From Citrobacter koseri (GTDB lineage: Bacteria > Pseudomonadota > Gammaproteobacteria > Enterobacterales > Enterobacteriaceae): a stretch of DNA of 64,000 bases. The notes beneath the pieces are model-generated. The model saw nothing but the letters and a program-made list of their open reading frames with translations. It had not been told where the DNA came from and searched no databases. Positions within the stretch are counted from its first letter, which is position 1; every line of letters begins with the position of its first letter. Shown here in pieces: positions 13,005 to 50,330 of this stretch. The translations under genes and the position numbers were made by a program. The stretch is from the NCBI GenBank assembly GCA_900446925.1, contig UAVY01000001.1, positions 248,001-312,000 of the forward strand, read 5' to 3'.

Positions 13005-13481
13005 ATGAAACTTATCAGCAACGACCTGCGCGACGGGGAAAAACTGCCCCATCGCCATGTGTTTTAACGGCATGGGCTATGACGGGGACAACATCTCCCG
13101 CACCTGGCCTGGGACGAGGTGCCCGCCGGTACGAAAAGCTTTGTCGTGACCTGCTACGATCCCGATGCGCCAACCGGCTCAGGCTGGTGGCACTGGATTG
13201 TCGCCAACCTGCCAGCCGATACCCGCGTACTGCAGCAAGGGTTTGGTTCCGGCCTGGTGGCGATGCCGGAAGGGACTCTCCAGACGCGCACCGATTTTGG
13301 TAAAGCAGGCTACGGCGGCGCAGCTCCGCCGAAAGGGGAAACGCACCGCTACATCTTTACCGTTCACGCGCTGGATGTGGAGCGCATTGATGTCGATGCA
13401 GGCGCCAGCGGCGCGATGGTGGGCTTTAACGTCCATTTCCATTCGCTCGCCAGCGCGTCGATTACCGCAATGTTCAGTTAA
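13005..13481 (+). CDS. ybhB: YbhB, PEBP/Raf kinase inhibitor-like protein (two cancelling frame breaks)
   Basis: Matches E. coli YbhB, 158 aa, a phosphatidylethanolamine-binding-protein family member of unknown cellular role. Start MKLISNDLRDGEKLPHRHVF at 13005. An extra T in the TTTT run near 13065 creates an immediate stop, and a missing C near 13092 restores the frame, so the 477 bp span is exactly the expected length. The ligand-pocket motif CYDPDAPTGSGWWHWI and GPPKGETHRY-like AAPPKGETHRYIF are present. Both indels are at homopolymers. Confidence 0.92.
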
Positions 13482-13586: not shown

Positions 13587-15113
13587 TTACAAGAAATCAG
13601 GTAATAACCGGAACAAGTCCCCACGCGCCAGCAGTTCGGTCGCGCACTCAATATCCGGCGCGAAGAAACGATCCTGAGTATAATGCGGCACCTGCTCGCG
13701 CAGCGCTTTTCGCGCCTGCTCCAGCAGCGGGCTTGAGGTTAACCCTTCCCGGAGGTCGATACCCTGACAGGCCGCCAGCCACTCTACCGCAATGACCCCC
13801 ACGCGTGTTTGCCGCCCATTTCCCATAGTCGCCGACCCGCAGCGGGCGCCATCGACACATGATCTTCCTGATTGGCCGACGTCGGCAGGCTGTCCACGCT
13901 GTGCGGATGCGCCAGTGCTTTGTTCTCGCTGGCCAGCGCCGCAGCGGTCACCTGCGCAATCATAAAACCGGAGTTGACGCCGCCGTTTTTCACCAGGAAA
14001 GGCGGCAACTGCGACATATGTTTATCCATCATCAGCGCGATGCGCCTTTCCGACAGCGCGCCGATTTCCGCAATCGCCAGCGCCAGATTATCCGCCGCCA
14101 TCGCCACCGGTTCGGCATGGAAGTTACCGCCGGAAATCACATCCCCCTCTTCGGCAAACACCAGCGGGTTATCCGAAACGGCGTTGGCTTCAACGAGCAG
14201 CACCTCCATCGCCTGACGCAGTTGTGTGAGGCACGCGCCCATCACCTGCGGCTGACAGCGAAGCGAGTACGGGTCCTGCACCTTTTCACAGTTATGGTGC
14301 GACTGTGCTATCGCGCTGGTCTCCGTCAGAACGTGGCGGAACAGCCCGGCGGCGGTCGATCTGCCCCACGCTGACCGCGCGCGGCATGAATGCGCGCATC
14401 AAACGGTCGGCGCGACCCCAGAACGGCTTCGGTGGTTAACGCCCCGCAGACCACTGCAGGAGGCGAACAGCGCCTGCGCTTCGAACAGCCCACGCAGCGC
14501 AAAGGCGGTGGAGGCCTGGGTGCCATTCAGCAGCGCCAGTCCCTCTTTCGCCGCCAGCGTGATCGGTTCCAGTCCAGCCTTTTTTCAACGCCTCTTTCGC
14601 CGGAAGCCACTCCCCCTGCCAGCGGGCTTTCCCTTCGCCAAGCAGCGTCAACGACATATGCGCCAGCGGCGCCAGATCGCCCGATGCCCCTACAGAACCT
14701 TTCGCCGGGATCAGCGGCCAGACTTCTGCGTTGACCAGCGCAATCAGCGCTTCAATCACGCTCAGGCGGATGCCCGAGAAACCACGCGCCAGGCTATTGA
14801 TTTTCAGCACCATGATCAGACGCACCATCGCGTCGTCCAGCGGCTCGCCAATACCCGCCGCGTGGGAGAGCACCAGCGAACGTTGCAGGTTTTGCAGATC
14901 CTCCGTGGCGATGCGCGTCTGCGCCAGCAGACCAAAACCGGTATTGATACCGTAGGCCGTGCGCCCCTCGGCGACGATATTGTTCACGCAGTCGACGCTG
15001 GCATTAATACCGTCAACCGCGCTGCTATCAAGACGCAGTTGCACTGGCTGCTGCCAGACGGCGCGAAGCTGCGCAAAACTCAGATGACCCGGCGTTAACG
15101 TAAGCGTATTCAT
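13587..15113 (-). CDS. hutH: Histidine ammonia-lyase HutH (several frame breaks)
   Basis: About 506 aa expected. First step of histidine breakdown, giving urocanate and ammonia. The N-terminal frame runs [13 protein letters not shown] to about residue 180 and contains [13 protein letters not shown], whose Ala-Ser-Gly forms the MIO electrophile, and the [10 protein letters not shown] motif. Breaks near 14570, 14330-14460 and 13810 divide the rest: [19 protein letters not shown], then [18 protein letters not shown] through [17 protein letters not shown], then [17 protein letters not shown] to the end. All parts look conserved. Start 1 bp after the hutU stop codon, so hutU-hutH form an operon. 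Confidence 0.92.
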
Positions 15114-15114
15114 A

Positions 15115-16806
<1,692 letters not shown>

Positions 16807-16851
16807 GACACCAGACTCCTTACGATGATCGGACAGATAAGTAACATATAC

Positions 16852-16862
16852 TTGTCTATACA
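16852..16862. promoter_or_regulatory. Putative HutC operator upstream of hutU
   Basis: TTGTCTATACA is found here and, identically, upstream of hutI (19943-19953). HutC, a GntR-family repressor released by urocanate, binds TGT-rich TATACA sequences at hut promoters, so the shared 11-mer is the likely operator. Inferred from co-occurrence. Confidence 0.65.
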
Positions 16863-16946
16863 ACTTGTCGCAAGGCTGATTTTTAACAACTGAGATACAT
16901 TTTTGTTATATTGCGTCAGCAATCACGCTTTTTATCGCGCCGTCAT

Positions 16947-17669
16947 TCAGGACATAAAATGGCCCTGCAACCGGTAGCGAGAACCGGGAAAAAGCAGGCG
17001 AGCGTGAGAAACAATGTGCGACGCAGACCAGGTGCGCCGATGAATTAACAGGCAGGGATCGTGCTCCTTAATGTTCAGCAGCGCGCACTCTTCCGCCGTG
17101 GCGCGCACGGCTTCCACAATGTGCTCCCCTTCCGTTAGCGGGGCGATCAGCGACAGGTATGCATGAGGCGTGGTCTGGCTGTAATCCTGCGCCAGATAAT
17201 CCGGTACAACGCCGGCATTCACACAGCGATCCTCAATCTGCACCGGCAGATCGTTTTCATAGTGCACCATCACCGAATGAAAAAATCAGCGTGCCTTCAC
17301 GCACATTCAGGGCCGTGGCCTGAAAGCGCATTCGCCTGCGTCTGTTCCAGCGTCAGCACCTCACAGCGGTGCTGATGGTGACGGGCGGCGATTTCATCGG
17401 CAATGCTGCGAATTTCAAACAGTGCGGACTGCCCTTTCGGTTCCGCCACCAAATGTGCCGACGCCCTGTAAACGCACCAGCAGCCCTTCATCCGTTAATT
17501 CCCGCAACGCCCGGTTGATTGTCATCCGGCTGAAGCCAAATTGCGCCACCAGTTCCGCTTCCGAGGGAATGCGGTCATGCGGGCGCCAGACGCCGCTGGC
17601 GATGTTGTCGCTGATCGTCTGTTTGACCTTTTCATAGAAAGGCACAGGAGCAGAACGGGATGGGAGCAT
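16947..17669 (-). CDS. hutC: Histidine utilisation repressor HutC (two frame breaks)
   Basis: GntR family, HutC/FarR subfamily. The N-terminal winged helix-turn-helix is clear: RIPSEAELVAQFGFSRMTI, then NRALRELTDEGLLVRLQGVG. After a break near 17460 the ligand domain continues VAEPKGQSALFEIRSIADEIA and HRCEVLTLEQTQANAL; after a break near 17300 it continues in the frame of MVHYENDLPVQIEDRCVN through AYLSLIAPLTEGEHIVEAV to the end. HutC represses the hut operons and is released by urocanate. Third gene after hutI and hutG, separated from hutG by a REP element. Confidence 0.9.
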
Positions 17670-17697
17670 GCGTAAGCCTTCCTTAAGCGTATGATTT

Positions 17698-17755
17698 TAT
17701 TTGCCGGATGGCATTATCCGGCCTGTAACGCGATTTCGGGCCGGACAAACATCGC
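17698..17755. repeat. REP element between hutG and hutC
   Basis: GCCGGATGGCATTATCCGGCC palindrome with adjoining GGGCCGGACAAAC, inside the hutIGC transcription unit. Confidence 0.7.
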
Positions 17756-17757
17756 GA

Positions 17758-18699
17758 TTAACGCCACCCGTGTGCGATTTGCCAGCCGAGGCGTGCCGCA
17801 ACACGCGCTGCGTTGCCATCATCGTCAAAGCGCGGATTAAATTCAACCATATCCACCGCCTGTAGCTTACCGCTGCGACAAACGGCATCAACAAGCCGCA
17901 TCACCGTCGCCAACGGCACACCGAGCGCTGCGGGCGCAGACACTGCGGGCATCTCCCAGGCGGGCAGCACATCAAGATCGATGGTCAGGTAGATCTTATC
18001 CACGCTGTCGATAACCTGCGCCAACGGCGCCTGAGCGGTATCACAATCCACGTCTTCTACGATTGTCACTCCGCGTTGTTGCGCCTCATCCCATAACGCC
18101 TGCGTATTTGCCGCCCGACTGACGCCAAAGCAGGCGTAATGAAACTCACGCTGTTGTTCATCGCATAATTGCGCTAACTGGCGAAACGGCGTACCGGAGG
18201 TGGCGTGGTCAGCCCGACGCAGATCCAGATGCGCATCAAGATTAATAATGCCGACTCTGGCATGCGGGAACGCATCAAGCAGTCCCGCGCCATGCCCAAA
18301 CGCCGTTTCATGTCCGCCGCCTAGCACAAACGTGCGCATATCCGCCTGCTGGCAGCGCCGTACTGCATCGCGAAGCGCCTGCTGCGCGCCTTCCAGATCG
18401 GGGGCTTGCGCAATAATGTTACCTAAATCCACCAGCCGATCGTGGCCGTGTGAGAGGCCAGGTTCGCCAGCGCCCGGCGCAGGGCATCCGGCGCGCCAGC
18501 AGCGCCAGGTCGCCCCTGGTTTCGCTTCACGCCTTCGTCACAGGCAAAGCCGAGCAAGGCGATTTTTTCACGATACATTTCGGGAGAAAACGTCGGGCTG
18601 CGCGTCACCGTCTGAAAGAGACGCAGCGCGTTAGCCGCCTCGGCGCTGTCATCACGCCCCTGCCAGAGCGTGGGGGGATGCGGGTTGCCATTGCGTCAT
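17758..18699 (-). CDS. hutG: Formimidoylglutamase HutG (two frame breaks)
   Basis: 313 aa expected; the 942 bp span fits exactly. Arginase/ureohydrolase family enzyme that hydrolyses N-formimidoyl-L-glutamate to glutamate and formamide. Metal-binding motifs are present: [21 protein letters not shown] and [20 protein letters not shown]. The start [10 protein letters not shown] at 18699 loses frame near 18670 (missing base before [12 protein letters not shown]); a second break near 18430 separates ASHTATIGW from [19 protein letters not shown]. The ATG overlaps the hutI stop (ATGA). Confidence 0.93.
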
Positions 18700-19920
18700 G
18701 TTACTTCTCCTCTGAATACACGGTGACAGAGCGGGTTACGCCCCGGTTCATAAAGGATTTCAACCGGAAGCTCAGCGTCCCATACGGCAAAGTCAGCGAC
18801 ATATCCCGCTTTCAATTGCCCATGCGTCGTCTGCCGCCCCAGCGCGCGCGCAGCATGCCGCGTCACGCCCGCCCACGCCTCTTCCGGCGTTAAGCCAAAC
18901 TGTACGCAAGCCATGTTCATCGCCAGATGCAAACTGATAAACGGACTGGTGCCGGGGTTAAAGTCCGTTGCAACCGCCATTGGCACGCCATAGTGGCGGA
19001 GCAACGCCACTGGCGGGCGCTGCGTCTCTTTGAGGAAATAAAACGCCCCCGGCAGCAGAACGCCCACGGTGCCGCTGCGACTCATCGCCGCCACGCCAGC
19101 CTCATCCAGATACTCAATATGGTCAGCGGATAACCCCTGATAACGACTCACCAGTTGTGCGCCCCCCAGCAAGGAGAGCTGCTCAACGTGCCCTTTTACC
19201 GGAATGCCCAACGCCTGAGCGGCCTGAAATACCCGCTCACTCTGCGCCAGGTTAAACCCCACGCTTTCACAGAAAAGATCCACCGACTCAAACAGCCCTT
19301 TTGCCCATAATCCGGGCAGAATACTTTCGCAAACTAGCGTGATATAGCCGTCGGGATCGTCACGGTATTCTGCTGGCGTCGCGTGTGCCGCCAGCAGGGT
19401 AGGACTGATTTCCACCCTGTTTTCATGCGCCAGCGCAGCGGCAACGCGCAACATTTTCTCTTCCGTGGCGAAATTCAGGCCATAGCCGGATTTCACCTCC
19501 AGCAACGTAACGCCTTCTTGCAGCAACCGCGCCATCCGCGCACGCGCAACGGCTAAAAGCTCATCTTCAGAGGCCGTCCGGGTCGCGGCGACGGTCGCGT
19601 TGATACCGCCGCCCTGCGCGCTGATCTGCTGGTACGACACGCCGTTAAGCCGCTGCTCCCACTCCCCGGCGCGCGTGCCGCCAAAAATCAGGTGGGTGTG
19701 ACAGTCAATCAATCCGGGCGTGACCAGTCGGCCTTGCAGATCCACGGTATTGCGGTGCGCGCGTTGAGCGACGACGCAGGCACAATATCCAGTATCCGGC
19801 CTGGCGGACGACAAAGCGCATGATCGTCCACCATCCCAATAAGGGCTACCGCGTTCAGGGTCCATCGTCGCCAGTCGGCCATTCCGCCAGATCGTGTCAT
19901 CAGGTAAAAGTTGCGCCCAT
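18696..19920 (-). CDS. hutI: Imidazolonepropionase HutI (several N-terminal frame breaks)
   Basis: About 405 aa expected. Metal-dependent amidohydrolase opening imidazolone-5-propionate to N-formimidoylglutamate. The intact main part has the metal motif [21 protein letters not shown] split as HTH, plus [32 protein letters not shown] and [11 protein letters not shown]. The start at 19920 assumes one extra G in the GGG after ATG: without it the protein reads [19 protein letters not shown], a good match to HutI N-termini. Two more breaks lie near 19840 and 19750. First gene of hutIGC. Confidence 0.92.
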
Positions 19921-19942
19921 TGGGTTCATCACTTGTCATGGG

Positions 19943-19953
19943 TTGTCTATACA
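19943..19953. promoter_or_regulatory. Putative HutC operator upstream of hutI
   Basis: Second copy of TTGTCTATACA, 23 bp before the hutI start. Identical to the motif upstream of hutU, so both hut transcription units would be controlled together. Confidence 0.65.
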
Positions 19954-20087
19954 TTTATTTTTTATTCTGCCGGGGTTGTCAATATTACAGGCCATGAATG
20001 TTATTTATTTGTGATGTACTTGCCTGGAACGTCGGGTGCGCGGCGTCTAAAAAAGAACTTTTTACCTTTTCACCTTCCCGTTTCGCT

Positions 20088-20108
20088 CAACTTAGTATAA
20101 AAAAGCAG
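20088..20108. other. Lambda-type attB site, unoccupied
   Basis: On the minus strand the 15-bp core GCTTTTTTATACTAA (20092-20106) is identical to the core of phage lambda attB in E. coli, including the 7-bp overlap TTTATAC. In the 21-bp attB span only one base differs, in the outer arm. The flanking GCTCAA and AGGCTTCA bases also match the E. coli locus. It lies just upstream of ybhC, as in K-12. No prophage genes adjoin it. Confidence 0.9.
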
Positions 20109-20152
20109 GCTTCAATGGAATTAATTTAAACTTTCAAAGCCCGGAGCAACCT

Positions 20153-21437
20153 GTGAACACATTTTCGGTTTCCCGTCTGGCGCTGGCACTGGCTTTTTGG
20201 CGTGACGCTGACCGCCTGTAGCTCTACGCCGCCCGATCAAATCCCATCCGATCAGACCGCGCCAGGCACTCCTCGCGTCCGATCCTGTCGGCGAACGAAG
20301 CGCAGAATTTCGTTGCTGCACACTATTTCTCGTCACTGACGCCGAATACGGCGCCGTGGACGCCTTCCGCCATTACGCTGCCTGCACAACCTGACTTCGT
20401 TGTCGGCCCGGCTGGCACGCCAGGCGTGACGCACACCACCATTCAGGCGGCGGTAGATGCAGCAATTACGCAGCGCAGCAGCAAGCGTCTGTACATCGCC
20501 ATTATGCCGGGCGAGTATCAGGGAACCGTGTATATCCCGGCGGCGCCTGGCAGCCTGACGCCTGTACGGCACGGGCGAGAACGCGATTGATGTGAAAATC
20601 GGCCAGGCGATTGACGGCGAAATGAGCACGACCGACTGGCGTCGTTCAGTGAACCCGGGCGGTAAATACATGCCGGGCAAACCTGCGTGGTATATGTTTG
20701 ATAACTGCCAGAGCAAACGCGGCGCCAGCATTGGCGTGATGTGTTCTGCGGTGGTCTGGTCACAGAATGACGGCTTGCAGTTACAAAATCTGACCATCGA
20801 AAACAATCTCGGTGACAGCGTTGACGCCGGCAACCATCCGGCAGTGGCCTTACGCACTGACGGCGACAAAGTGCAGATTAATAAAGTGAACATTCTGGGT
20901 CGCCAGAATACCTTCTTCGTGACCAACAGCGGCGTGCAGAACCGCCTGCAAAACGATCGCCAACCACGCACGCTGGTGACGAACAGTTACATTGAAGGGG
21001 ATGTGGATATGGTTTCCGGTCGCGGCGCAGTGGTGTTCGATAACACCGATTTCCGCGTGGTGAACTCCCGTACCCAGCAGGAAGCGTATGTTTTCGCTCC
21101 GGCAACGCTGTCGAATATTTATTACGGTTTCCTCGCCACCAACAGCCGCTTTACCGCCGCAGGTGATGGCGTCGCGCAACTGGGTCGTTCGCTGGATGTG
21201 GATGCCAACACCAACGGTCAGGTCGTTATCCGCGATAGCGTGATTAACGAAGGGTTCAATATGGCGAAACCGTGGGCTGACGCCGTTATCTCCAAACGTC
21301 CTTTTGCCGGGAATACTGGCGCGAAGGATGATAAAGACGAGGTGCAGCGTAACCTGAACGACACGAACTTTAACCGGATGTGGGAATACAACAACCGGGG
21401 TTTAGGCAGTAAAGTGGTTGCCGAACCGAAGCAATAA
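20153..21437 (+). CDS. ybhC: YbhC, outer-membrane lipoprotein of the pectinesterase family (three frame breaks)
   Basis: Matches E. coli YbhC, 427 aa, an outer-membrane lipoprotein with a pectin methylesterase-like beta-helix fold, reported to act as an acyl-CoA thioesterase in vitro. A GTG start gives V-N-T-F-S-V-S-R and a signal peptide with lipobox LTAC; an extra T in the TTTTT run near 20195 breaks the frame just before it. Further breaks lie near 20270-20290 and 20560-20570. The intact part from IDVKIGQAIDG holds ALRTDGDKVQINKVNILG, EGDVDMVSGRGAVVFDN and a QQEAYVFAPATL stretch, the family's catalytic region. Confidence 0.92.
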
Positions 21438-45632: not shown

Positions 45633-45686
45633 TCAAAACTTTTAAACAAAGAACTAACTCTTTTGGATTACAAACAGTTAGTAGAA

Positions 45687-49284: not shown

Positions 49285-50330
49285 TTACGCTCGTAGTGTA
49301 GCCGCAAATTCCAGCATACGGTTGAGCGGCAGCAGCGGCCCCTTCTCGCAACGCCTGGTCAACGTGAATCTCATGGGCCTGCCCGCCCTGCTCTAACCCC
49401 TCAGCAATTGCCTTAAGGCCGTTCATCGCCATCCACGGACAATGCGCGCAGCTACGGCAGGTCGCCCCTTCTCCGGCTGTCGGCGCTTCAAGCAACTCTT
49501 TATCAGGCACCGCCTGCTGCATTTTATAGAAAAATGCCCCGGTCGGTCGCCACAATAAGCTGCTTATGCGGCAGCGTGCGGGCGGCATTAATCAGCTGGC
49601 TGGTAGACCCGACGGCATCCGCCATATCGACAATCGATTGTGGCGACTCAGGATGCACCAGCACGGCGGCATCCGGGTACAAACCTTTCATCCGGGTCAA
49701 CGCCTGGGTTTTAAATTCATCATGAACGATACAGGCCCCCTGCCAGCAGAGCACATCCGCGCCGGTCTGCTTTTGCACGTAATGTCCCAGGTGGCGATCC
49801 GGCGCCCAGATAATTTTCTCGCCCAGACTGTCCAGATGTTCAATCAGTTCAACGGCGATACTGGAGGTAACAACCCAGTCAGCGCGGGCTTTGACGGCAG
49901 CAGACGTGTTGGCGTAAACCACTACCGTGCGATCCGGGTGGGCGTCGCAAAACGCGCTAAATTCGTCAATCGGACAGCCCAGATCCAGCGAGCATTCCGC
50001 CTGTAGAGTCGGCATCAGGATGGTTTTTTCCGGGCTGAGAATTTTGGCCGTCTCGCCCATAAAACGGACGCCAGCGACCAGCAACGTGGAGGCAGGATGT
50101 TTCGCGCCAAATCGCGCCATCTCCAGCGAGTCGGAAATGCATCCTCCGGTTTCTTCAGCCAGTTGCTGGATTTCGGGATCGGTGTAATAGTGCGCCACCA
50201 TGACGGCATCGCGCGCTTTCAGCAGACGTTTGATTTTCTCGCGGTAGAATTGCTTTTCATCCACGCTTAGCGGGGTCGGTTTCGGCGGAAACGGATAGAT
50301 TGCGGCTTCCGGGTCAAACATTACGCTCAT
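49285..50330 (-). CDS. nadA: Quinolinate synthase NadA (two frame breaks)
   Basis: 347 aa expected; 1046 bp against 1044. Iron-sulfur enzyme making quinolinate from iminoaspartate and dihydroxyacetone phosphate, for NAD synthesis. Start [20 protein letters not shown]. The three cluster cysteines are in [18 protein letters not shown] (first), [15 protein letters not shown] (second) and [16 protein letters not shown] (third, after a break near 49535). A last break near 49345 shifts the end, which should read [16 protein letters not shown] with stop at 49285. A NadR box precedes it. Confidence 0.94.

Follow-up and report, generated by a model that had tools for sequence, protein, structure and literature searches.

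An unoccupied lambda-type attachment site in the ybhC leader of Citrobacter koseri, and its use by lambda-type elements in several enteric genera

The integrase (Int) of phage lambda binds sites of the core type and swaps strands between attP and attB, the two being aligned on identical overlaps, as set out in the excerpted text of PMC4880445, and in Escherichia the ybhC/ybhB interval is described in an excerpt of PMC9580842 as an island-abundant site. In E. coli K-12 the lambda attB lies between ybhB and ybhC, beside bio; the earlier note had placed it between these genes, and the order ybhB-core-ybhC was seen in the MG1655 sequence retrieved for this study (L289). Here we describe the corresponding site in a 64,000-nucleotide stretch of Citrobacter koseri DNA, hereafter the window. 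The site shares with K-12 attB the neighbouring gene ybhC, the 15-bp core, the overlap and the B arm, and differs from it in its host, in a B' arm that has G rather than C on the att strand, and in a hut operon that stands where K-12 has a short gap between ybhB and the core. Elements with integrases of the lambda/HK97/434 type offer a second comparison: the inserts found at this core in relatives carry an Int of the same family, although their P' arms vary between hosts and the copies in C. amalonaticus, Salmonella arizonae and two further genomes (G174 and G259) are truncated or decayed. Salmonella phage SI8 (MK972688) and its group likewise have a lambda-type Int and the same overlap in attP; the SI8 attP arm AAGTTGAACG matches the B' side of the Salmonella clade, and SI8 differs at the GC end of the core.

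A sequence match placed an unoccupied 21-bp lambda attB (B-O-B') on the minus strand of the window at 20088..20108. Its 15-bp common core, GCTTTTTTATACTAA (20092..20106, minus strand), is identical to that of lambda attP and K-12 attB, and the 7-bp overlap (20095..20101, minus strand; GTATAAA on the ybhC strand), which we take to occupy this position inside the core, is intact, identical to that of lambda attP (the stretch of NC_001416 denoted L291) and would contain a -10-like TATAAA of ybhC. Under an order-2 Markov model of the window, 7e-5 exact copies of the core are expected; a search of all 64 kb with up to three mismatches returned a sole other match, at 45678 with two mismatches, which is within the shuffle expectation (mean 0.83). 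Over the 27 letters compared, the core and B arm are the same in K-12 MG1655, the window and the nearest genome compared (G001), and 20091 is the sole position at which the window and G001 depart from K-12. The statement of the earlier note that there is one change in the outer arm thus stands as to the single change; the word "outer" is slightly loose, since 20091 lies directly beside the core. The core is 47-61 nt upstream of the ybhC start, within the leader as the earlier note had it, and the site falls in the ybhC-ybhB interval beside bio. Because both host halves of the leader block described below are present and the leader is unbroken through the site, the site is empty, and no integrated element was found at the core in either the window or G001. 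By sequence, core-type half-sites flank the overlap, a B half as in K-12 and a B' half as in lambda C'. This copy may be competent for recombination by lambda Int.

On the far side of the site from ybhC, the interval is filled by a 6.3-kb hut block on the minus strand (about 13590..19939, the low end being approximate), in agreement with the earlier note, and ends at ybhB (13005..13481, plus strand, start approximate), where there is no attB core. The gene ybhC itself (20153..21437, plus strand), with a GTG start, encodes a protein of the putative acyl-CoA thioester hydrolase family and is frameshifted in the window assembly. In G001, which is 98.9% identical to the window over 20 kb and has a chromosome of 4,720,462 bp, the hut block is unbroken, and intact open reading frames with NCBIfam names follow the order ybhB-hutH-hutU-hutC-hutG-hutI-core-ybhC. 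The window has the same gene order with many frameshifts. An alignment of 12999-33034 with G001 contains 158 mismatches and 55 gap openings. The gaps fall in many different genes, and 45 of the 55 are insertions in the window. The assembly thus looks indel-rich, which would explain the broken appearance of the hut genes and ybhC, and the gene breaks in 12999-33034 should not be taken as pseudogenes.

The conservation of the site was examined in 162 loci, comprising 81 of the 105 ybhC-matching genomes, 80 named loci (the best 80 of 139) and the window; the 24 genomes left out were 18 distant matches (up to 50% identity) and six closer ones (66-70%). Clustering at 97% ybhC identity gave 135 representatives, of which eight were classed by their junctions as occupied and 127 as unoccupied. 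The exact 15-bp core is found in 91 of the 162 loci (74 of the 135 representatives), and it belongs to a longer conserved element: in the window, a ybhC leader block CTTCCCGTTTCGCTCAACTTAGTATAAAAAAGCAGG at 20074..20109 on the plus strand, a probable ybhC promoter, preceded in the locus comparison by a weaker conserved A/T-rich element GAACTTTTT (20055..20063, plus strand). Defined as CTTCCCGTTTCGCTC-AACTTAGTATAAAA-AGCAGG with at most three mismatches in the upstream half, the block is present in 122 of the 127 unoccupied representatives. The five without it are L177, with four mismatches, and the distant loci L200, L201, L202 and L206, which are counted as unoccupied though occupation cannot be judged there. 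Across block columns 0-29 the commonest base reaches 0.89-1.00 of the 122 loci, and the flanking columns average 0.48 and 0.50 in a set of 112 loci that was selected on the core, so that the core columns of that set are uninformative; anchoring on the upstream half, as in the 122 loci, is free of this bias. The GTATAAA overlap is in register in 119 of the 122; most of the variation within the block falls in its B arm and A-run. The block occurs at 69 hut-bearing and 53 hut-less loci, and the 18-mer AACTTAGTATAAAAAAGC is exact in 44 and 22 of these, respectively. The core is the inner half of a block of about 36 bp that is conserved before ybhC with or without hut, a pattern for which the ybhC leader is a better explanation than hut.

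The position and length of the block and its TATAAA suggest that it is probably the ybhC promoter, with the -10 TATAAA inside the 7-bp overlap. A scan of 19900-20220 for sigma-70 promoters (-35 and -10 elements near consensus, 16-18 nt) returned a single site, at 19933-19961, and none at the block, which counts against a plain sigma-70 reading. Searches of G001, G228 and G254 with the full block recovered one exact copy, at the known place in G001, and near-matches to the upstream half numbered 18, 8 and 22 in the three genomes against 23, 13 and 17 for a reversed-pattern control; without a clear excess over the control, no regulon is indicated. A literature search for a mapped ybhC transcript start found none, and the excerpted text of PMC9239242 gives none. 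In light of the scan, the near-match counts and this search, promoter function is something that we infer.

The base at 20091 sets the window apart from K-12 in a way that bears on the history of the site. On the att strand (minus) the window has G and K-12 has C, and the G equals the corresponding base of the lambda attP C' arm: after the T-run, K-12 (L289) reads ATACTAACTTG, whereas the window reads ATACTAAGTTG and lambda attP (L291) also ATACTAAGTTG. The identity of the arm letters with those of the phage could be read as the scar of a past prophage. Yet 109 of the 122 unoccupied representative loci with the block share this base, across the family and including the unoccupied locus of Escherichia whittamii (L224), strand exchange within the overlap should not bring an arm base to an empty site, and the C form looks derived; we give the scar next to no credence. 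The remaining 13 loci, which have the K-12 base, are L140, from the Escherichia clade, several from Klebsiella and a few more, and the attR of phage DN1, which comes from a B strain, has T at the arm position 20091. Since the base of the window is the commonest in the family and is shared by E. whittamii, the C form of K-12 is best taken as derived, probably within Escherichia, and most simply arose more than once in the family.

Lambda-Int elements integrate at this core outside E. coli. Some ybhC-side junctions have a lambda P'-type arm in place of the outer half of the block, and 10 of the 162 loci have Int-like sequence immediately before ybhC, corresponding to seven genomes after removal of three duplicates; an eighth genome is L226, in which a lambda P' arm lies close to the start of a contig. 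In C. amalonaticus S646 (L222), 4.57 kb of inserted DNA separates hutI from ybhC; it is bounded on each side by the core (0 and 2 mismatches) and contains an AlgX-like gene along with a truncated lambda-type Int. An insert of 4.8 kb with a truncated Int is present in G174, from the Salmonella clade of the ybhC tree, S. arizonae (L215) retains a decayed remnant of about 0.9 kb whose hut-side half is unrecognisable, and G259 has an Int fragment at the core. Four Escherichia genomes (L223, L225, L226 and L228) have lambda-type arms. At L137, in the Salmonella clade, an open reading frame of 532 aa lies inside a remnant element, between -3374 and -1776 relative to ybhC.

In IMG/VR, both junctions are seen in the 51,486-bp contig IMGVR_UViG_2847562356_000005, which carries the core as a direct repeat at 172-186 and 50150-50164, about 50 kb apart. 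Its flanks (L288 and L039) match C. portucalensis A60, one stretch of 189 bp at 99.5% identity and another of 1342 bp at 94.5%. The 356-aa Int of L039 adjoins attL, is 75.6% identical to lambda Int, has full-length matches to PDB entries 1z1g and 5j0n, and contains the Pfam domains Arm-DNA-bind_1 and Phage_integrase. The residues of lambda-type integrases, R212, K235, H308, R311, H333 and Y342, are invariant in five aligned Ints, those of L039, L004 and L225 and the remnants of L222 and L137, from which the N-terminal part is missing. Two further contigs come from hosts without hut at the locus: L004 is an attL junction with a 357-aa Int and a host flank 98.8% identical to G244, and L287 is an attR junction directly beside ybhB. 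Host-specific patterns, with which the 51,486-bp contig was found, were matched by two contigs in one search and by one in another. At least 120 IMG/VR stretches contain the 15-mer; the first 120 comprise 63 attL-like, 21 attR-like, two with both junctions and 34 others, and among those 120 Escherichia-type sequence flanks 63 of 65 attL and 22 of 23 attR junctions. An IMG/VR stretch of another kind, L092:8787-11024, has a lambda-type junction with a ybhC-type block about 420 bp from lepA; its lepA side matches the Salmonella-clade genome G045 at 95% over 184 bp, and its block side matches ybhC-leader blocks. Among phage records the best, OR851331 (unannotated, 2,093 bp), resembles chromosomal DNA of Salmonella and was not counted as a phage. 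Excerpts of PMC6456863 and PMC2147009 make no mention of this site in Citrobacter, and such prophages may have been reported before.

These junctions bear on whether the core could be only a ybhC regulatory element that resembles attB by chance and is unused by phages outside E. coli. The block is indeed kept where no element has inserted (127 of the 135 representatives being unoccupied), and independently of hut (69 and 53 of 122 loci). However, the core is the site of prophage or remnant junctions in Citrobacter, in the Salmonella clade and in another genus, and IMG/VR contigs L004 and L287 have host flanks of other genera, which makes a purely regulatory role very unlikely. Against its own reading the earlier note had set a core conserved only as part of a ybhC promoter with no integration ever seen; the conserved ybhC leader bears out the first half, and the second is contradicted by the integrations. 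Its suggestion that the site could still be a target for lambda-integrase-type phages is supported by occupation of the core in relatives, among them genomes of Citrobacter and of the Salmonella clade that carry hut.

In E. coli the site is often interrupted. A 151-bp K-12 probe has matches in 5372 of 5426 complete genomes, of which 3457 cover at least 80% of the probe in one place, leaving 1915 (36%) that fall short; with a longer probe the figure was 3460 of 5374. An uninterrupted copy of attB is thus missing from about 36% of E. coli genomes. Among 60 evenly sampled rows, 38 were whole and 22 incomplete, and of these 22, which were inspected as rows with one site annotated, 21 stop at the last or last-but-one base of the core and one keeps the ybhC side only.

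The earlier note had also proposed that the interval is a hot spot where hut was gained or, more likely, lost in the E. coli line. If hut had been gained or lost through this att site, as part of an Int-mobilised element, cores would be looked for at both ends of hut; the window has one core only, with no second core within three mismatches at the ybhB end of the block, and hut, not being flanked by cores, is not an att-mediated insert. In favour of mobilisation, the ybhC tree shows at least eight changes between loci with and without hut, and in some genera the interval holds different cargo (by eye, genes of mannitol type in Kluyvera). Besides the missing core, three things tell against it: Int-like sequence occurs in 10 of the 162 loci, all classed by junction as occupied, and in no unoccupied hut locus; the block is kept with or without hut; and E. 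coli keeps an intact ybhC-proximal block and just lacks hut. We regard carriage of hut by Int as extremely unlikely, and the notion of hut as a passenger of the hot spot is not upheld.

Loss in the Escherichia line, by comparison, fits the ybhC tree, which is that of one gene from a quick search with long branches flagged. Among its 135 rows hut is present at the locus in 73, absent in 57 and not scorable in five. Escherichia (six rows, three hut-less and three unscorable because they are contig ends) is nested in a 27-row clade with an SH-aLRT of 100, in which all of the other 21 rows except G042 carry hut at the locus. HutU was detected in 52 of 80 genomes; the two from the Escherichia clade among the 80, G134 and G228, which were searched whole, gave no match, and K-12 has the ybhC-proximal block intact with about 90 bp between ybhB and the core. 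From this nesting, the absence of HutU and the intact block in K-12, we conclude that hut is most likely an older resident of the ybhB-ybhC interval and that Escherichia lost it by a route that did not involve Int. More distant genera that lack hut may owe this to additional losses, to relocation or to late arrival. In several genomes HutU is encoded elsewhere, and a second HutU type, 72-75% identical, is found away from the ybhC locus in several genera, with G172 and G252 having both types. In G254 (L129, Salmonella clade) HutU is in two pieces with stops, hut being present there in broken form. Kluyvera (L233) has three genes in place of hut, at -4600 to -70 from ybhC, by eye a mannitol transporter, a dehydrogenase and a regulator. 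In G160 (L193) the interval contains a different type of insertion: 10.5 kb of DNA, including what looks by eye like a recombinase gene, abuts the upstream side of the block at -10580 to -137 from ybhC and leaves the core intact. Lambda transducing phages carrying Salmonella hut were reportedly described by G. R. Smith in about 1971. Literature searches on hut beside the lambda attachment site, the last judged by title, found no paper on this arrangement.

Taken as a whole, it is highly probable that the window contains a genuine, empty lambda-type attB that has descended vertically, is conserved through the ybhC leader and is a phage target, with hut an older neighbour lost in Escherichia. 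In the mechanism that we propose, a lambda-type Int would bind B and B' and then exchange strands across the overlap, so that the phage would come to lie between the outer half of the block (hut/ybhB side, attR) and its inner half (ybhC side, attL), splitting the two. The overlap, if held constant by the host as the core of the ybhC leader, would provide a stable phage target across the family.

What replaces the outer half was compared in 11 phage P' arms, some of them related and two, those of L225 and lambda, identical. All begin C-N-T-T-T and end in C, in the same register; the 15-nt stretch that takes the place of the upstream half of the block has C at both ends in 11 of 11 arms and starts with CTT in 9 of 11. 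As a separate observation, the arms of L222, L137, L215, L195, L225, L226, L228, L039, L004, L292 and L291 have a common T-run, which resembles an inverted copy of the T-run of the core, in the same register as the CTTCCCGTTT half of the host.

A more far-reaching proposal, which we advance tentatively and hold to be possible rather than probable, is that phages chose this site because the host pins the overlap as the -10 box of a family-wide ybhC promoter, that integration splits this promoter and the P' arm replaces its outer half, so that lysogeny rewires ybhC, and that K-12 attB is a derived, mismatched form. Lambda attB is known in kind; what deserves to be retained from the present analysis is the ancestral arm and the pinned overlap. 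The lambda target emerges as older than the E. coli arrangement, kept by the host in a leader block and used by lambda-type elements in several enteric genera. This raises the questions of whether K-12 attB is weaker than the ancestral variant and whether ybhC expression is altered by lysogeny; if the tentative proposal is true, lambda lysogeny would rewire ybhC expression.
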